From the NCBI GenBank assembly GCA_015062495.1, contig SUUN01000002.1, forward strand, positions 1 to 64,000: 64,000 bases of DNA. The letters are read 5' to 3'. Numbering within the stretch: the stretch's first letter is position 1; each line of letters opens with the position of its first letter. The translations under genes were made by a program, and so were the position numbers. The DNA comes from Alphaproteobacteria bacterium. GTDB taxonomy: Bacteria; Pseudomonadota; Alphaproteobacteria; Rs-D84. The notes beneath the pieces are model-generated. The model did not search any database, had not been told where the DNA came from, and saw only the letters and a program-made list of their open reading frames with translations. Of the stretch, positions 7,422 through 13,863 are shown one piece after another.

Positions 7422-9254
7422 ATGAAAAAAAACGATAATATTTTTTCAAGACACACCTGTAAACATTGCTCTTTGCTCTTTGCTTTTTGCGCAATGTTTG
7501 TACTGTGTACAACATCGGATGGCGCGGTTGTATCCCGGGGGCAACGCCCAACAACCACGGCCCGCATGCCCACTATGTCGGCAATGATTAACACCACCGC
7601 ATCCAACACATCCGCAACAACCCCAGAAACCGAATCGTCGGATGTTGAATCTGAAACCGAAATTGTTATCGAACCAGAACCCGAAATTATAATCGAAGAT
7701 AAAACATCACAATTTGATGAATTCATGGCGGATTCCACCCCAACGACCGACACATCATCTGAATCATTGGCGGCACAAATTCGCGCACAACGCGCCGCAC
7801 TGGACGCGGCGGACGCGGCATCCGCGGCTGCAAACCAAATGGCCACAGCACGCGCATCGGGCCAAAACGCATGTGATGCCAACCTGCGTGAATGTATGAA
7901 ACAAAAATGTGGCAACGATTATTCGAAATGTGCCGGCGACACAGACACCATGTGGGGAACAAAAATGGACGCATGCCGACGCGACCTGCCGTGCAGTGGA
8001 CATGAATACGCACTGTTTTCAGCCCAGATTAAGGCCGACCGCGACATGAACGCACGCATTGCATCATATAATTCAATTGTTGATTGCGGCAATCGCTATA
8101 ACAATTGCATTGTCACCGAATGCGGTCAAAAATTTACCAAGTGCCTGGGCAAACGCGCGGGCGATGCAGCGATTTCGAAATGCGAAAAAATCGCAAAAAC
8201 ATGCACTCAACAGGACAGCGGTCTGGCATCACGCACACTAAATGTATTTGGCTCACTGCGCGTCGACGCTGAAAAACAGGTTGCCGCCGATGAAAAACGT
8301 CTGTACGAATTGCGCGACAAAATGCGTGACACATGCGGCCGTCTGGGGGCAATGTTTGACGACCGTACATTGGATTGCGTTTACACGGTCAATTTCTTTG
8401 CCGGCGAAGATAACACCCTGTACGCATCGAAAAAAGCATATGCCGGTTCAACATTCAGTTGTGATCAAAACTGGTTTGGTGTCGACATTACCACGTTCAA
8501 GGAAAACGCATTCCGCCTGACACGGACACAAACATCCGCCACATCTGCATTAATGGGTTCGGGCATTGGTATGGCAACAGGCGCAATAACATCGGGCGCA
8601 ATCGATCGCGCAATCGATCGACACAAGGCTGAAAAGGCCTTAAAAGATGCCGAATCCGAACACGAAGAATTATATGGGGATGACGATTCAGATGATGAAA
8701 ACGACACAAAACCAGGCGCAGCCGAACGCCGTTGCAAGCGCGCAAATGGCACATGGGAAAATAACACATGCACCGGCGCAACCTGTGGCAAGAACAAAGA
8801 ATGGAACAACACAAAAAATAAATGTGTAAAAACAAAGGATTCAGGGGAAGATACGGACAATGATTCATCTGAACGCCCCGATAACGAGACCGCCAAAAAG
8901 AATTGTGAAGCCGTCGGTGGAACATGGGATAAAATCTGCAAAGATCCAAAGTGTGGCGATAATGCACTCTGGGACGATTGGACCGGAAAGTGCAAGGAAT
9001 ATGCCGCCGGGGAAAAACCTGCCACTTTTACCGAACAAGAAACCGCATGCAAGATATTTGGCACATGGACTGGGACAACATGTATGTGTAACAATATGGG
9101 CAAATGGAACGCATCTAAAAAAATGTGCGAATGCGACCCACAAACCCAAGAATTCAAAGACGGGAAATGTCAATTTAAGTCTATTAGCGCAACAAACGCC
9201 GGCACAACCGGCACACAATTTAATCTGGGATCACGCAACCTGGGCAAACAATAA
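7422..9254 (+). CDS. Secreted Cys-rich repeat protein, second gene of operon
   Basis: 610 aa. The N-terminal signal sequence ('CSLLFAFCAMFVLC') is again encoded by the CTCTTTG repeat (7465-7490). A Thr/Glu-rich linker follows, then an Ala-rich helix. Two C-x6-C-x4-C-x6-C blocks come next ('CDANLREC..CGNDYSKC' and 'CGNRYNNC..CGQKFTKC'), then a helical middle. A glycine-rich segment 'ALMGSGIGMATGAITSGAI' may touch or cross a membrane. The C-terminal third has three related Cys modules with a 'C...GTW....C' core ('CKRANGTWENNTC', 'CEAVGGTWDKIC', 'CKIFGTWTGTTC'). It lies 14 bp after the preceding gene and 18 bp before the next. No known family recognised; a disulphide-rich surface or periplasmic structure is inferred. 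Confidence 0.8.
   Translation: MKKNDNIFSRHTCKHCSLLFAFCAMFVLCTTSDGAVVSRGQRPTTTARMPTMSAMINTTASNTSATTPETESSDVESETEIVIEPEPEIIIEDKTSQFDEFMADSTPTTDTSSESLAAQIRAQRAALDAADAASAAANQMATARASGQNACDANLRECMKQKCGNDYSKCAGDTDTMWGTKMDACRRDLPCSGHEYALFSAQIKADRDMNARIASYNSIVDCGNRYNNCIVTECGQKFTKCLGKRAGDAAISKCEKIAKTCTQQDSGLASRTLNVFGSLRVDAEKQVAADEKRLYELRDKMRDTCGRLGAMFDDRTLDCVYTVNFFAGEDNTLYASKKAYAGSTFSCDQNWFGVDITTFKENAFRLTRTQTSATSALMGSGIGMATGAITSGAIDRAIDRHKAEKALKDAESEHEELYGDDDSDDENDTKPGAAERRCKRANGTWENNTCTGATCGKNKEWNNTKNKCVKTKDSGEDTDNDSSERPDNETAKKNCEAVGGTWDKICKDPKCGDNALWDDWTGKCKEYAAGEKPATFTEQETACKIFGTWTGTTCMCNNMGKWNASKKMCECDPQTQEFKDGKCQFKSISATNAGTTGTQFNLGSRNLGKQ
7465..7490 (+). repeat. CTCTTTG-type dispersed repeat inside signal-peptide coding sequence
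   Basis: ATTGCTCTTTGCTCTTTGCT and on to 7490, in frame in the 610-aa gene; same motif as at 6553-6590. Confidence 0.75.
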
Positions 9255-9272
9255 GAAAAAGAACCAACAACC

Positions 9273-11858
9273 ATGAAAAAATTATTAACTGTCTTTATTA
9301 TTTGTTCCATCGCCACCCTGCCCGCAATGGCGGTTGAATGTAATACTACTACTCTTTTTGACATATTGGCCCAATATTGTGATGCCGAAGGTTACAAATA
9401 CAACACAAACACAGGGGTGGGCGATAATGCCTATGGCAGTTACAGAACATACAGCAATTCAATTGAAATTGGTTGCTATAAATTCAAAAATACAGACCAC
9501 AAAAAAATGACAACAGCCGTGGCCACAGCATGCAACATTCCAGAAAGTAAGGTCACAATCCAAACCGACCTACAACGCAGTACCAGCCAAGTACAATGCA
9601 AAGATATTGACAAAAAGAATGGAATCACAGAATTACAATACATTGATGGCGTATGCGCCCCCACCAAATGCCTGACACCACGTTGGGAATTATCCGGCAA
9701 TGGCAAACGCGCAAAATGCATTGAACAAAAATGTGAATTTAAGCATGGCACTGGAAAATGGGAACAAAACGGCGACACATGGGAATGTAAATTAACAGCA
9801 TGCGACACCGCCAAAGGCTGGAAAAAGAACGACGCCGGTAACGCATGTATTGAAATGTTGGATGAATGCACCGCCGAACAAAAGGCCACGCATCCAAACG
9901 CAACAAAAACCGGCATAAAAAAAGGCACTGAAACCTGTATCGCCCAGGAATGTAAATGCGGATATGATTTAACAAACGACCAATGCGTTGAATGGTCATC
10001 GGACAAACAATGCACCAATGACACAAAACCAAAATTACCCAAGAATGCAAAGTCTGCCAAGATGATATGCAATGCTAAGGGCAAGGCCACATGTGAAATC
10101 ACGGCTTGCCAAGACGGCTATGACCACAACACAGAAAAAAACAAATGCACCAAGCCCGGTGAACCCGACACCGATGAAGACGTAGATTCTGATAGCGCAA
10201 TCGTTCCACCAACCGATGGTGGCAATGACCAAACACAACAAAATGAACCGCGCCTGTCCGAAGCAGATTCACTGGCAAAAATCGACGAATTACGGGACAA
10301 TGCCGACGCAATGAAGGCCAAAGAACAATCCACCGCCAATAAACTATTGGGCGCGGCTGGGATGGGCGCAACCGGTATCGGTGGCATGCAAATGGCATCC
10401 GCCATGGCCGAAGAAAATGCCGACGCCGATGCCGAGGCCGCCATGCGTGCCTATCTGGCCACATTCCATTGCAACTATGGCGCGGGGAAAAACATCCCGG
10501 GTGGCGAACGTGATGTTGAATTGCCGGGTGGCAATGAATTAATCGGCTTGTATTCCGAATATGTAAATCTGGCAAATGATTTAAAGGTTCGCAAAACCGC
10601 CCTGGACATGCGCCCGGGTATTGAATCTGAACCAATTTTGGACGCGGCAACATCTGGATTATATGACGACGTCGCAATTGGCAAAACATCCGGCGCATAC
10701 ACATCCCTGGCACGCGCATTAATGGACCCGAACGGCCCAGACGCCGCCGCATGGGCCGCACAAAAGGCAGAAACCGCCGACAAAAAGGAAACCGGCATGA
10801 TAACCGCGGGCATTGGCGCGGCGGGTTCACTGGTTGGTAACCTGGCCATTAATTCAGGCAAGGCAAAGCAAAACAAACTGGATGAAATCCTGAATAAATA
10901 CGATAAAAAGAAACAATTACTGGATGATCTGCAATCAGATGTGGCCATAATCCCGCCTCAAACCGCCGCATGCCCTGACGGCACAACGGGCACGGCACAC
11001 CCAGATTGCACATGTACCGACACAACAAAAATATATAACCCAAACACACATGCATGCGAAGAATGTGTTGGCGGACAAACGGTACAAAGTGGCAAATGCG
11101 AATGTCCAACCGATAAACCGCTGTGGGATAATCGTATCAGCCAATGCGTTGCCGAACCAACCACTTGCACTCCACAGTGTACCCCAACCGATGGTGACCA
11201 CCTGATTGTTCAAAATAATTGTTCGTGCACATGCAGCGATGGCTATACATATGAAAATGGGACATGTACATGTACCGGTGAAAACAAACAAATTGGTGCA
11301 GACGGCAAATGCCAAACAATTGAAACAAAAACAATTGTAGAACGTATTTCAACCCAGACAACAACAACGGTTGAAAACGCATCGTTGCCGGCCGGTTCGC
11401 TGTTCAAGGTTGGATCATATGAACTGGTAGACGCTGCAAAAACCGCCCTGAACACATTTATAAAGGGCTTGTCCGATGCAAGATACACAAACTGCAAAAT
11501 CACAATAGATGGATATACCGACCCATTAGGTGGCACAAATACAAATAAAACATTATCACAAAATCGTGCCAACGCCGTAAAGCAGCATATCGAAGGTTTA
11601 AACAATCCTGCGATTGAATCTGTCACCGCTGTGGGACACGGCGAAAACAAATGTACATGCGGCGCAGGCAAATCATCCACTGACACCGACGGTCAAATTA
11701 ATGGAATTCAAATTAATTATAGTGACCGCGAGTACAGTGCGTGTTCTGGAAAAGATACCACCCACTCATTATCCGGCAACGCACGCTACGCCCCATGTCG
11801 CCGTGTTGAAATAACCGCTGATTGTAAACAAATCACAACGGTAACCCAACAACAATAA
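9273..11858 (+). CDS. Secreted Cys-rich protein with OmpA-like C-terminal domain
   Basis: 861 aa. Signal peptide 1-20 ('MKKLLTVFIICSIATLPAMA'). The N-terminal ~300 residues are tandem Cys modules ('CKCGYDLTNDQC', 'CEITACQDGYDHNTEKNKC'). A mostly helical Ala-rich middle has two hydrophobic Gly/Ala stretches ('LLGAAGMGATGIGGMQMA', 'MITAGIGAAGSLVGNLAI'). More EGF-like Cys motifs follow ('CECPTDKPLWDNRISQC', 'CSCTCSDGYTYENGTC'). The C-terminus has OmpA-family peptidoglycan-binding features ('ITIDGYTDPLGGTNTN', 'LSQNRANAVKQHI', 'VTAVGHGE', 'CRRVEI'). This probably tethers the protein to the cell wall. It is the last gene of the 6520-11858 operon, so the three products may form one envelope complex (inference). 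Confidence 0.85.
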   Translation: MKKLLTVFIICSIATLPAMAVECNTTTLFDILAQYCDAEGYKYNTNTGVGDNAYGSYRTYSNSIEIGCYKFKNTDHKKMTTAVATACNIPESKVTIQTDLQRSTSQVQCKDIDKKNGITELQYIDGVCAPTKCLTPRWELSGNGKRAKCIEQKCEFKHGTGKWEQNGDTWECKLTACDTAKGWKKNDAGNACIEMLDECTAEQKATHPNATKTGIKKGTETCIAQECKCGYDLTNDQCVEWSSDKQCTNDTKPKLPKNAKSAKMICNAKGKATCEITACQDGYDHNTEKNKCTKPGEPDTDEDVDSDSAIVPPTDGGNDQTQQNEPRLSEADSLAKIDELRDNADAMKAKEQSTANKLLGAAGMGATGIGGMQMASAMAEENADADAEAAMRAYLATFHCNYGAGKNIPGGERDVELPGGNELIGLYSEYVNLANDLKVRKTALDMRPGIESEPILDAATSGLYDDVAIGKTSGAYTSLARALMDPNGPDAAAWAAQKAETADKKETGMITAGIGAAGSLVGNLAINSGKAKQNKLDEILNKYDKKKQLLDDLQSDVAIIPPQTAACPDGTTGTAHPDCTCTDTTKIYNPNTHACEECVGGQTVQSGKCECPTDKPLWDNRISQCVAEPTTCTPQCTPTDGDHLIVQNNCSCTCSDGYTYENGTCTCTGENKQIGADGKCQTIETKTIVERISTQTTTTVENASLPAGSLFKVGSYELVDAAKTALNTFIKGLSDARYTNCKITIDGYTDPLGGTNTNKTLSQNRANAVKQHIEGLNNPAIESVTAVGHGENKCTCGAGKSSTDTDGQINGIQINYSDREYSACSGKDTTHSLSGNARYAPCRRVEITADCKQITTVTQQQ

Positions 11859-12609: not shown

Positions 12610-13296
12610 CTATTCAGTATAATAACAGTTTGACGTGTACTGATACGACCCAGCACCATCCGTTAATGTTGATGTCGTTGGAATATAACATGATGTTATT
12701 TCCGTACTGCCCGCGGCACTCGTTCCATAAACACCACCAGACGACGGACATCGCGTACACCCGCGATATCCATTCAGTTGCGAATAACTGGCAGTACCAT
12801 AATACCCGGCCGCACAACGATACTTGGTGGATTGGGTACATTCACACCCGGTTGTGAGCCCACAGCTAAATTCAGTCAGGGACTGATACCCCGTTTTTGG
12901 CGAAGACCATATTGGCATAATACCGGCGCCACAACTGTCACACTGTGTACCGCACGTACAAATGTTTCGTGTGGTGTTGGTAAAGTTTAAGTTACACACC
13001 GCCCCATAAGCAGATTCATCAGACAAATTTTGCTGTGCCAGTTCCAGATAATCTTCATTACATCCACCGGTACAAGATTGGTATTTAAGATAATATCCAT
13101 TAGCGCTGTTATATAAACATTTGGTCGTATAACTGCTGCACACCCCAGATACATGCGTCATCTCATACACAATCGCGGTTGACGACGTGGGACACGTAGC
13201 AGATACACACCCCTGCAGCCCCACCGACGGATCCAGCGACACCGCATTCGCCCCTATTGGTATCACAGCCAATATCGGTATTAAGAATTTTTTCAT
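12610..13296 (-). CDS. Secreted Cys-rich protein with structured mRNA leader
   Basis: 228 aa. Signal peptide 'MKKFLIPILAVIPIGANA'. The mature protein has more than 20 cysteines in EGF/TNFR-like spacing ('CTCGTQCDSCGAG', 'CGLTTGCECTQSTKYRC', 'GCTRCPSSGGVYGTSAAGS'). The last motif is the same style as the 'CPAGTYQ' repeats of the gene at 38160, so these are probably extracytoplasmic disulphide-rich relatives. The start is well defined by TCAGGAG with 8 nt to the ATG. That Shine-Dalgarno can pair with an upstream leader segment (see 13297-13444), so translation may be controlled by RNA folding. Specific role unknown. Confidence 0.78.
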   Translation of the reverse strand: MKKFLIPILAVIPIGANAVSLDPSVGLQGCVSATCPTSSTAIVYEMTHVSGVCSSYTTKCLYNSANGYYLKYQSCTGGCNEDYLELAQQNLSDESAYGAVCNLNFTNTTRNICTCGTQCDSCGAGIMPIWSSPKTGYQSLTEFSCGLTTGCECTQSTKYRCAAGYYGTASYSQLNGYRGCTRCPSSGGVYGTSAAGSTEITSCYIPTTSTLTDGAGSYQYTSNCYYTE

Positions 13297-13349
13297 TTTT
13301 CAATCTCCTGATTTTTTGTTAAACAAAAAACCACCGCTGTAATGCAAGT

Positions 13350-13440
13350 GGTCAGGAGGTTGATAGCAATCCATAGAATTGTGTGCTTATTTATATATAT
13401 CGCAACCCTCCTGACCCAATTGGGTATCAGGAGTTTTTTT
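13350..13440 (+). ncRNA. Possible antisense RNA to the leader
   Basis: On the plus strand, TTGTTA-16-TGTAAT (13316-13343) could start an RNA near 13350. It would run through the complementary segments to a convincing terminator (CTCCTGACCC-AATT-GGGTATCAGGAG then seven T, 13408-13440). No plus-strand gene upstream otherwise explains that terminator. The promoter is weak and the RNA is unproven. Confidence 0.3.
13408..13440 (+). terminator. Plus-strand intrinsic terminator
   Basis: Seven-bp outer stem (CTCCTGA/TCAGGAG) with an inner CCC-AATT-GGG, followed by TTTTTTT. It has no obvious protein-coding gene to serve. Confidence 0.75.
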
Positions 13441-13450
13441 ATTCATCGAA

Positions 13451-13479
13451 ATAATAAAACACGACGCATAACGCGTCAT
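13451..13479 (-). promoter_or_regulatory. Candidate promoter of the structured leader
   Basis: Minus strand ATGACG (13474-13479), a 17-bp spacer and TATTAT (13451-13456), giving a start near 13444 and a 148-nt leader. Confidence 0.4.
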
Positions 13480-13585
13480 TAAGTACATATTCCGACGCTA
13501 TGGCACGGGCTATCACACCCCATCGCCGGAACACCCGACGACATCCCTATTATACGCTATACTCGCCACAAATTCAAATACTTAG
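13480..13585. other. Intergenic stretch without recognised features
   Basis: No credible ORF, RNA gene or repeat seen between the leader promoter and the MITE-like element. Confidence 0.5.
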
Positions 13586-13795
13586 ATAAATAAAAGTTTA
13601 TCGCAGTTTGCCCGTTGGGCAAACAAAGAGCAAATAGCAAAGCGCAAAGAGCAATTAATATTAAGACTCGTCATTCCCGCGAAGGCGGGAATCCACTGCG
13701 TCGCAGACATTTTTATGCAGTCCCTGCGGGGCAATAGATACCCGCCTGCGCGGGTATGACGATTTTATTTTTTACTTCGTTAAACTTTTATTTAT
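13586..13795. mobile_element. MITE-like element with 15-bp terminal inverted repeats
   Basis: Ends are ATAAATAAAAGTTTA (13586-13600) and its exact reverse complement (13781-13795). Inside are a GTTTGCCC-GTT-GGGCAAAC palindrome (13606-13624), the reverse CTCTTTG repeat (13624-13656), ATTCCCGC-GAAG-GCGGGAAT (13673-13692), and TGCAGTCCCTGCGGGGCA plus TACCCGCCTGCGCGGGTA hairpins. There is no coding capacity. A second, partly rearranged copy in the opposite orientation is at 46487-46764. Confidence 0.65.
13624..13656 (-). repeat. CTCTTTG-type repeat inside the MITE-like element
   Basis: Reverse strand reads AATTGCTCTTTGCGCTTTGC and on to CTCTTTG, the same unit found in the coding copies at 6553 and 7465. 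Confidence 0.75.
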
Positions 13796-13863
13796 CGCAG
13801 TACTATATACCCGTCCCACGAAGTTTTAACGAAGTGGGATTCCACAACTGCACTCTGAACACT

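Follow-up and report, generated by a model that had tools for sequence, protein, structure and literature searches.

The gene under study is located on the minus strand of the window (the whole stretch of 64,000 nucleotides that was analysed) at 12610..13296 and encodes a protein of 228 amino acids, for which neither a Pfam nor a PHROG family was found. The product has a signal-peptide-like start; as the original prediction had stated, it is Cys-rich, and a 24-codon ORF (13300..13374, minus strand) does end 3 nt before the main ATG. A functional role for this short ORF is not sustained, however: its start codon is not conserved, and since its ATG sits in a hypervariable loop (B1, see below) and is missing from the aligned copies of the same genome, the ORF is considered a chance one. 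At 7422-11858, the window contains the genes of two large secreted Cys-/repeat-rich proteins of 610 and 861 aa, the second one with a C-terminal OmpA domain (PF00691); the regions upstream of both genes were covered by the covariance-model scans (R1 and R2) described below.

A sigma-70-like promoter, TTGAAT-17 nt-TATAAT (10/12 consensus bases), lies at 13549..13577 on the minus strand; from its position, the transcription start is predicted at about 13542-13548, and an aligned TATAAT is present in most of the copies of the leader in the same genome. The leader had been thought to measure about 148 nt; a length of about 250 nt (13297..13548, minus strand) was found, the copies being homologous from the start codon up to the promoter at 13577-13549. 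The four segments on which the prediction was centred are only half of the element, and the upstream half, where the helices with the strongest covariation have their partner strands, had been missed. None of the shuffles folds as well as the leader, whether the 181-nt (z -4.7) or the full 259-nt version (z -5.1) is considered. The words CTCCTGA/TCAGGAG were found four times in the 64-kb window against 1.9 expected, and all four occurrences fall inside the leader. Just 5' of the -35 box, a short palindrome, GATAAACTTTTATTTATC, can be seen (window 13585-13605 and 13782-13800), which is located in the same place in many copies; the orientation of its centre is opposite between copies (the window, L010 and L012 vs. 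L009 and L011). REP-like inverted repeats, ATTCCCGCGAAGGCGGGAAT ... ACCCGCCTGCGCGGGTATGACG, lie at 13670-13770, between the promoter region of the leader and ribosomal-protein genes.

Read from 5' to 3', the leader comprises the hairpin H1, the hairpin H2 with strand A1, strand A2, H3/T1, segment 1, segment 2, the P2 arm, the P3 hairpin with strand B1, and strand B2, followed by segment 3, the terminator T2, the Shine-Dalgarno (SD) sequence and the gene (all the coordinates of these features refer to the minus strand). These parts form two modules of one RNA: module 1 consists of H1, H2, A1, A2 and T1, and module 2 of a three-way junction closed by the pairing of segments 2 and 3, with B1 and B2, and then T2.

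In module 1, the stem of the 5' hairpin H1 (TCGUCGG-GUGUU-CCGGCGA, 13523..13541) comprises 6 bp or more in 146/150 copies. The hairpin H2 (GGGG-loop-CCC, 13507..13521) displays A1, and its arms covary, changing together between GGGG/CCCx and GAGG/CCUC in 149 of the 150 copies. The module is closed by T1 (GACGC-GUUAU-GCGUC plus a U-rich tail, 13452..13477), a terminator-like hairpin that was found in 43/60 copies of the subtype of the window vs. 9/97 of the other subtype; the sequence and the aligned copies suggest that H3 (GCGUC...GACGC, 13473..13498) might be an anti-terminator of T1. A few copies are devoid of module 1, a promoter immediately preceding segment 2. Such module-2 copies, either stand-alone or in tandem, can be seen at L106, L147, L148 and L158; at L148, the B1/B2 strands of the second copy exactly match the A2/A1 strands of the first one, and this match is better than that of the B1 belonging to the first copy itself. 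The tandem copies are followed by a small conserved protein of about 63 aa (MSLFK.E...; L148 561-749, with relatives in L106 and L147).

The four complementary segments are present on the minus strand, as the original prediction had described them. Segment 1 (CTCCTGATACCC, = CUCCUGAUACCC; 13433-13422) pairs with segment 2 (GGGTCAGGAGG, = GGGUCAGGAGG; 13417-13407), with matching changes among copies; segment 2 is also the 5' strand of the junction stem P1, whose 3' strand is segment 3 (CCTCCTGACC, = CCUCCUGACC; 13359-13350), bearing the anti-SD-like core CCUCC; segment 4 is the SD sequence itself (TCAGGAG, i.e., UCAGGAG; 13311-13305). Within the junction, the P2 arm (13381..13406) contains a conserved internal loop, GYGA...AAUAAGC, and its arms covary (GCGG/CCGC, GUUGC/GCAAC, GUGG/CCAC, GUCGC/GCGAC); the P3 hairpin (CAAUU-CUAUG-GAUUG, 13367..13381) is 91.8% paired, with two-sided changes in 5/5 pairs. 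The ACC of the terminator T2 (ACCAC...GUGGUUUUUU, 13325..13352) also belongs to the end of segment 3, and its first CC to the end of the 2:3 stem; T2 is terminator-like in 155/164 copies.

A BLAST search of the leader against its own genome (0.9 Mb, 3 contigs) disclosed 12 copies with 72-100% identity, each of them located directly 5' of a gene whose start codon lies at a near-constant distance. With a covariance model built on the 3' half of the leader (R1), this number rose to more than 20, and with a broader one (R2) to about 28, the R2 listing for this genome having 29 rows, one of which is the reverse strand of another; the E-values of both models are rough. The same genome also harbors a second, more diverged subtype, with segments GUCGGGG/CCCCGAC and a larger P2 (C1:300683-300773, C1:52590, C1:409833, C2:336905 and C1:359215); for the Rfam family sRNA-Xcc1, the score of one of its copies is 49.5 bits, and a glycosyltransferase-like gene is located after one of them.

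The element is present in 138/142 genomes of the same family, representing all of its genera (13/13), and in 173/201 genomes of the order, Rs-D84, whose members are genome-reduced gut symbionts (PMC12306168). The highest number found in one genome was 52 matches, in the relative G002. Outside the order, R2 revealed relatives in 25 of 385 genomes of the class (further alphaproteobacterial families) and in a few other proteobacteria; in those of these distant relatives that were read, the complementarity between A and B strands is present. When 84,980 species genomes were scanned for a DNA pattern, the matches listed came exclusively from gut- or termite-associated Alphaproteobacteria MAGs, including Candidatus Enterousia. 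The core pattern was also observed on four IMG/VR viral contigs (L197-L200), in one of which it precedes a Rha-type phage regulator.

The comparison of these homologous leaders, a covariance search that the prediction had itself proposed, supports the pairings 1:2 and 2:3, which compete with each other and are both kept through compensatory changes; the mutual exclusivity that had been claimed thus holds in outline. In 100 sequences, 99.4% of the cells of P1 (segments 2:3) are paired and two-sided changes occur in 7/8 pairs; the covariation score of P1 is 0.440 vs. 0.160 after shuffling and at most 0.103 in slid controls, where the alignment was fitted to the covariance model, which favours the structure, and the slid controls were handled identically. 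The main subtypes read UGA/UCA/UGA or AAC/GUU/AAC in segments 1/2/3, and full three-base matching was observed for 1:2 in 97/143 copies, for 2:3 in 131/143, and for both in 87/143.

The third pairing that had been proposed, between segment 3 and the SD sequence, finds no support as a conserved feature beyond the generic GGAG/CUCC core, since a segment 3 gains nothing from being matched to its own SD rather than to the SD of another copy (own vs. foreign, 6.05 vs. 6.08 bp; 4.83 vs. 4.80 bp), and a conserved SD sequestration was therefore rejected. A trend in distant relatives, between clades, for a GGAAG SD to accompany a CUUCC segment 3 was likewise set aside, being confounded by the SD preference of the genomes. 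The 3:4 pairing does form in the predicted minimum free energy (MFE) structure of the window leader, though not conserved among copies. The flanks of segment 3 vary and its CCUCC core is nearly invariant; this core could have an anti-SD function or serve something else.

Two further helices connect the modules. Strand A1 (UGAUAGC, 13509..13515) is complementary to B2 (GCUAUCA, 13361..13367), a hypervariable joining strand 5' of segment 3, and strand A2 (CCAUAG, 13498..13503) to B1 (CUAUGG, 13371..13376), the hypervariable loop of P3. In an alignment-free comparison of 164 copies, at least 7 Watson-Crick pairs between A1 and B2 were found in 91% of the copies vs. 7% when strands of different copies were mismatched; for A2:B1, at least 6 pairs were found in 72% of own vs. 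7% of cross combinations, and this helix is formed in the predicted MFE structure of the window leader. In the 28 copies of the genome, a rough automatic parse distinguished 28 A1+A2 combinations, several of its assignments being wrong; when these copies were read by eye, the combinations were also distinct, with some A1 strands shared. Hence, A1:B2, A2:B1, 1:2 and 2:3 all covary, and each copy of the genome has an A/B address of its own. A second downstream target, like seqC of phage P4, was not recognized, complements of a copy's own 7-mers being no commoner downstream than cross ones. For the module-2-only copies, a search for an exact A partner, i.e., a target in trans, matched only their own antisense strands in the genomes G850 and G851; the corresponding search in G852 gave two further matches.

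The genes following the element share some features, and the sequences up- and downstream of the copies are otherwise unrelated. After the 12 BLAST copies, most gene products contain many cysteines and begin with what looks like a signal peptide, and two are small HTH-like proteins. According to a crude signal-peptide rule, 94/155 ORFs located after elements look secreted; among those of at least 150 aa, the fraction is 56/70 vs. 221/785 in a background set that includes spurious frames, and the cysteine content of the secreted-looking ORFs is 5.4% vs. 1.8% in the background. HTH domains occur in at least 12/139 downstream proteins, to which the PHROGs search adds phage regulator and anti-repressor families. 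The downstream start codon lies at a near-fixed distance after T2 (median 29 nt).

As to known RNA families, the statement that the leader matches no riboswitch class holds true for the window copy: the Rfam scan, which had been suggested as a check, gave no match at gathering thresholds, and the relaxed scan of the leader gave matches at chance level only. None of the Rfam 15 riboswitch families was matched, nor were the models of sRNA-Xcc1, C4, c4-a1b1 or isrK; the window copy was therefore rejected as a member of an Rfam family. It does not reach the 53 bits of the gathering threshold of sRNA-Xcc1 (RF02221); distant relatives retrieved with R2 reach 56-77 bits for this family, over the threshold. 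Four of nine distant loci scanned are above it (L280, L281, L269 and L273), with two more below. In the family of the window, the sRNA-Xcc1 model has matches in 65/95 genomes, 4 of them over the cut-off, and in the genome of the window it matches seven places, some at the elements described here, not at the window copy. The topology of the junction, with P1, P2 and P3 and a joining strand 5' of the 3' side of P1, is that of the RF02221 consensus; the two RNAs are also alike in the 6-nt loop of P3, and the internal loop of P2 may correspond to the A-rich one of sRNA-Xcc1. The P2 internal loop reads GAUAUAUAUAAAUAAG in the window, its putative counterpart in sRNA-Xcc1 being AAUACAA/GGAAUA, and L232, L243, L259 and L269 bridge the way to that consensus. 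The kinship of the window copy to sRNA-Xcc1 runs through intermediates, and by the thresholds of the families it does not count as a member.

sRNA-Xcc1, filed as the gene of an 88-nt sRNA and observed as an RNA of this length (PMC2996969), is a Xanthomonas integron-cassette RNA located upstream of symE in cassettes (PMC12444791); an upstream complementary module or a leader role is not described for it in the searchable open PMC literature. Unlike it, the window copy is devoid of the GAAA-type hairpin in P2, possesses T2, and has bacterial secreted or HTH genes downstream. Among the genes located after the distant elements, KilA-N/Bro-type antirepressor-like proteins are encoded.

The plan of the whole leader can be compared with that of phage regulatory RNAs. 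The window copy gave no match to isrK (RF01394), whose gathering threshold is 50 bits; module 1 of the copy L009 is matched weakly by isrK, end to end (19.1 bits, E 0.042 in a search of 291 nt). The leader shows the isrK-type plan, i.e., a 5' promoter, an upstream hairpin module, a middle strand that pairs downstream, and a terminator in between. In relaxed scans, neither the window leader nor the relatives' copies matched C4 (RF01695) or c4-a1b1 (RF03163), two families that the same Rfam library does find in Gifsy-1 and P4, where Rfam places isrK and c4-a1b1 directly upstream of C4. In Gifsy-1, the strands A1 (TTGGCGT, in a GGG..CCC hairpin), A2 (TCACCG), B1 (CGGTGA) and B2 (ACGCCAA) follow each other in the same order as in the leader. 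The element itself occurs in two phages, where it comprises module 1, a strong T1 and A/B strands that match: in Rac-SA53 it is located directly before ant, and in the Vibrio phage VPBES it precedes a small ORF and the gene of a DNA-binding protein.

The IsrK-orf45-anrP system of Gifsy-1 resembles the leader in its promoter, in a 77-nt module with H1, H2 and a terminator, and in the read-through to a complementary module. It is known from mutations that the IsrK helices b-I, b-II, d-I and d-II represent alternative folds switching translation (PMC4825925): in the inactive fold, the central part of IsrK is paired to a downstream segment, and the ribosome binding site (RBS) lies in a local hairpin; in the other fold, this central part folds into a hairpin by itself, and the pairing partner of the RBS is located downstream; the short IsrK, acting in trans, turns translation on (PMC4825925). 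The helices described there (PMC4825925) have counterparts in the leader, namely A:B/H2 for b-I/b-II and 1:2/2:3 for d-I/d-II. The leader differs in that its sequence is below the thresholds of the families, T2 is added, no antirepressor is controlled, and an orf45-like frame is not conserved; the idea that segment 2 might be the SD of a conserved small ORF comparable to orf45 was rejected, no suitably spaced start codon being present in the copies read.

In the immunity region of P4, isrK/c4-a1b1 (seqA) is followed by C4 (CI) in the same order as here, and the pairing of CI RNA with seqA leads to early termination of transcription (PMC4825925, PMC10111431); differently from the leader, the P4 system is present in one copy per genome and has an immunity function, and the leader is devoid of a second downstream target like seqC. 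With C4 the leader shares two short variable strands that are complementary within the leader (A1:B2 and A2:B1). According to work cited in PMC5320573, ant is blocked by C4 in P1 and P7, and a difference of 4 nt between their paired strands is sufficient to abolish cross-reaction between the two phages. A C4-like group of sRNAs has multiplied within one bacterial genome in Acinetobacter baumannii (PMC5320573); like the c4-ant RNAs of P1 and P7, these are three-stem RNAs with two short variable address loops (PMC5320573). The A. baumannii sRNAs are without known targets, whereas here the complementary strand sits in the same leader, and the C4 model gives no match. Amino-acid attenuators and translational riboswitches share with the leader the competition between 1:2 and 2:3 and the terminator logic; unlike them, it shows neither a conserved coding leader peptide nor a match to a riboswitch family.

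These data suggest, with a probability of about two thirds, that the leader works as an antisense switch with two modules, of the type known from phage immunity, and was multiplied to control secreted Cys-rich and small HTH proteins. According to this model, the transcript would pick one of two folds. In fold I, A:B and 1:2 would be paired and segment 3 would be available for covering the SD, in the case of this copy, and the terminators could form, so that the gene would be off; the predicted MFE structure of the window leader is fold I, with segment 3 over the SD. In fold II, H2 and 2:3 would form; segment 3 would be occupied and its CC denied to T2, leaving the SD free, so that the gene would be on. 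A short RNA bearing an identical address might set the choice in trans, the candidates being the T1-terminated module 1 (like the short IsrK) or a processed module 2 (like C4, P4 CI or sRNA-Xcc1), and the distinct addresses would stop the approximately 28 copies from cross-talking. We infer the ON/OFF direction, the action in trans and the processing from IsrK, C4 and P4. As for the origin, the leader may derive from the leaders of phage antirepressor genes, or share a common descent with them, and would then have been multiplied in the bacterial lineage. The switch or attenuator logic that had been read from the four segments is thus retained as far as the mutually exclusive pairing is concerned; a conserved sequestration of the SD and a metabolite riboswitch model are not.

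Other explanations can be considered. If the leader were a new metabolite or ion riboswitch, the junction with its GYGA...AAUAARC loop would be the aptamer, the A:B helices would be structural pseudoknots, and the ligand would favour 2:3, leading to antitermination at T2. The complex conserved junction with its invariant internal loop, as well as the conservation of both the competing hairpin 1:2 and T2, would fit such a device, and hypervariable helices are also expected among paralogous aptamers; however, the downstream genes encode surface proteins, HTH proteins and antirepressors rather than the enzymes of one metabolic pathway, no Rfam riboswitch is matched, and the relatives are a known sRNA family, which makes this explanation quite improbable. 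Base-pairing with a partner RNA appears more likely than a metabolite as the input, because the layout equals that of the phage isrK/c4-a1b1 plus C4 antisense leaders.

Such a partner would be dispensable if the leader worked purely in cis, the competition of A:B with 2:3 being a kinetic folding timer sensitive to transcription speed, the ribosome, Rho or temperature. Nearly every copy does hold all of its partner strands in cis, the stand-alone module-2 copies are without an exact A partner, and fold I is the MFE structure; nevertheless, IsrK and C4/CI, to which the leader is related, are short RNAs with an action in trans (PMC4825925; PMC5320573; PMC10111431), sRNA-Xcc1 was observed as an RNA of 88 nt (PMC2996969), and T1 would release a short module 1, so that an attenuator without any trans RNA is considered unlikely. 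Finally, the number of copies, the few tandem and module-2-only ones among them, and the fact that T2 could end a free-standing RNA might point to a repeat or mobile element carrying an sRNA gene with its own terminator, next to which the downstream genes would be incidental. In that case, neither the near-fixed distance between T2 and the gene start (median 29 nt) nor the excess of secreted-looking proteins among the longer downstream ORFs (56/70 vs. 221/785 in the crude test) would be expected, and the flanking sequences are otherwise unrelated on both sides; this explanation is given very little credit.

Going back to the two-module antisense switch, it may tentatively be proposed, as a possibility rated below even odds, that dozens of address-coded antisense leaders form a network in which each surface or HTH gene has a pair of complementary strands to itself and the short RNA of one locus switches that locus only, resulting in an independent, possibly bistable, expression of surface proteins. 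If this were true, a surface repertoire would be controlled in a manner resembling phase variation through RNA pairing alone, by means of a domesticated phage immunity device, and since the address strands covary, their specificity is directly testable by compensatory mutation. The two-module plan joins sRNA-Xcc1, isrK/c4-a1b1 and C4/P4 CI, which have been filed separately, and sRNA-Xcc1, instead of being an orphan sRNA, would gain a testable role as one half of a leader switch. A phage regulatory RNA would then have been adopted on a large scale by bacteria with genomes of 0.7-1.1 Mb, in which few other regulators are expected.
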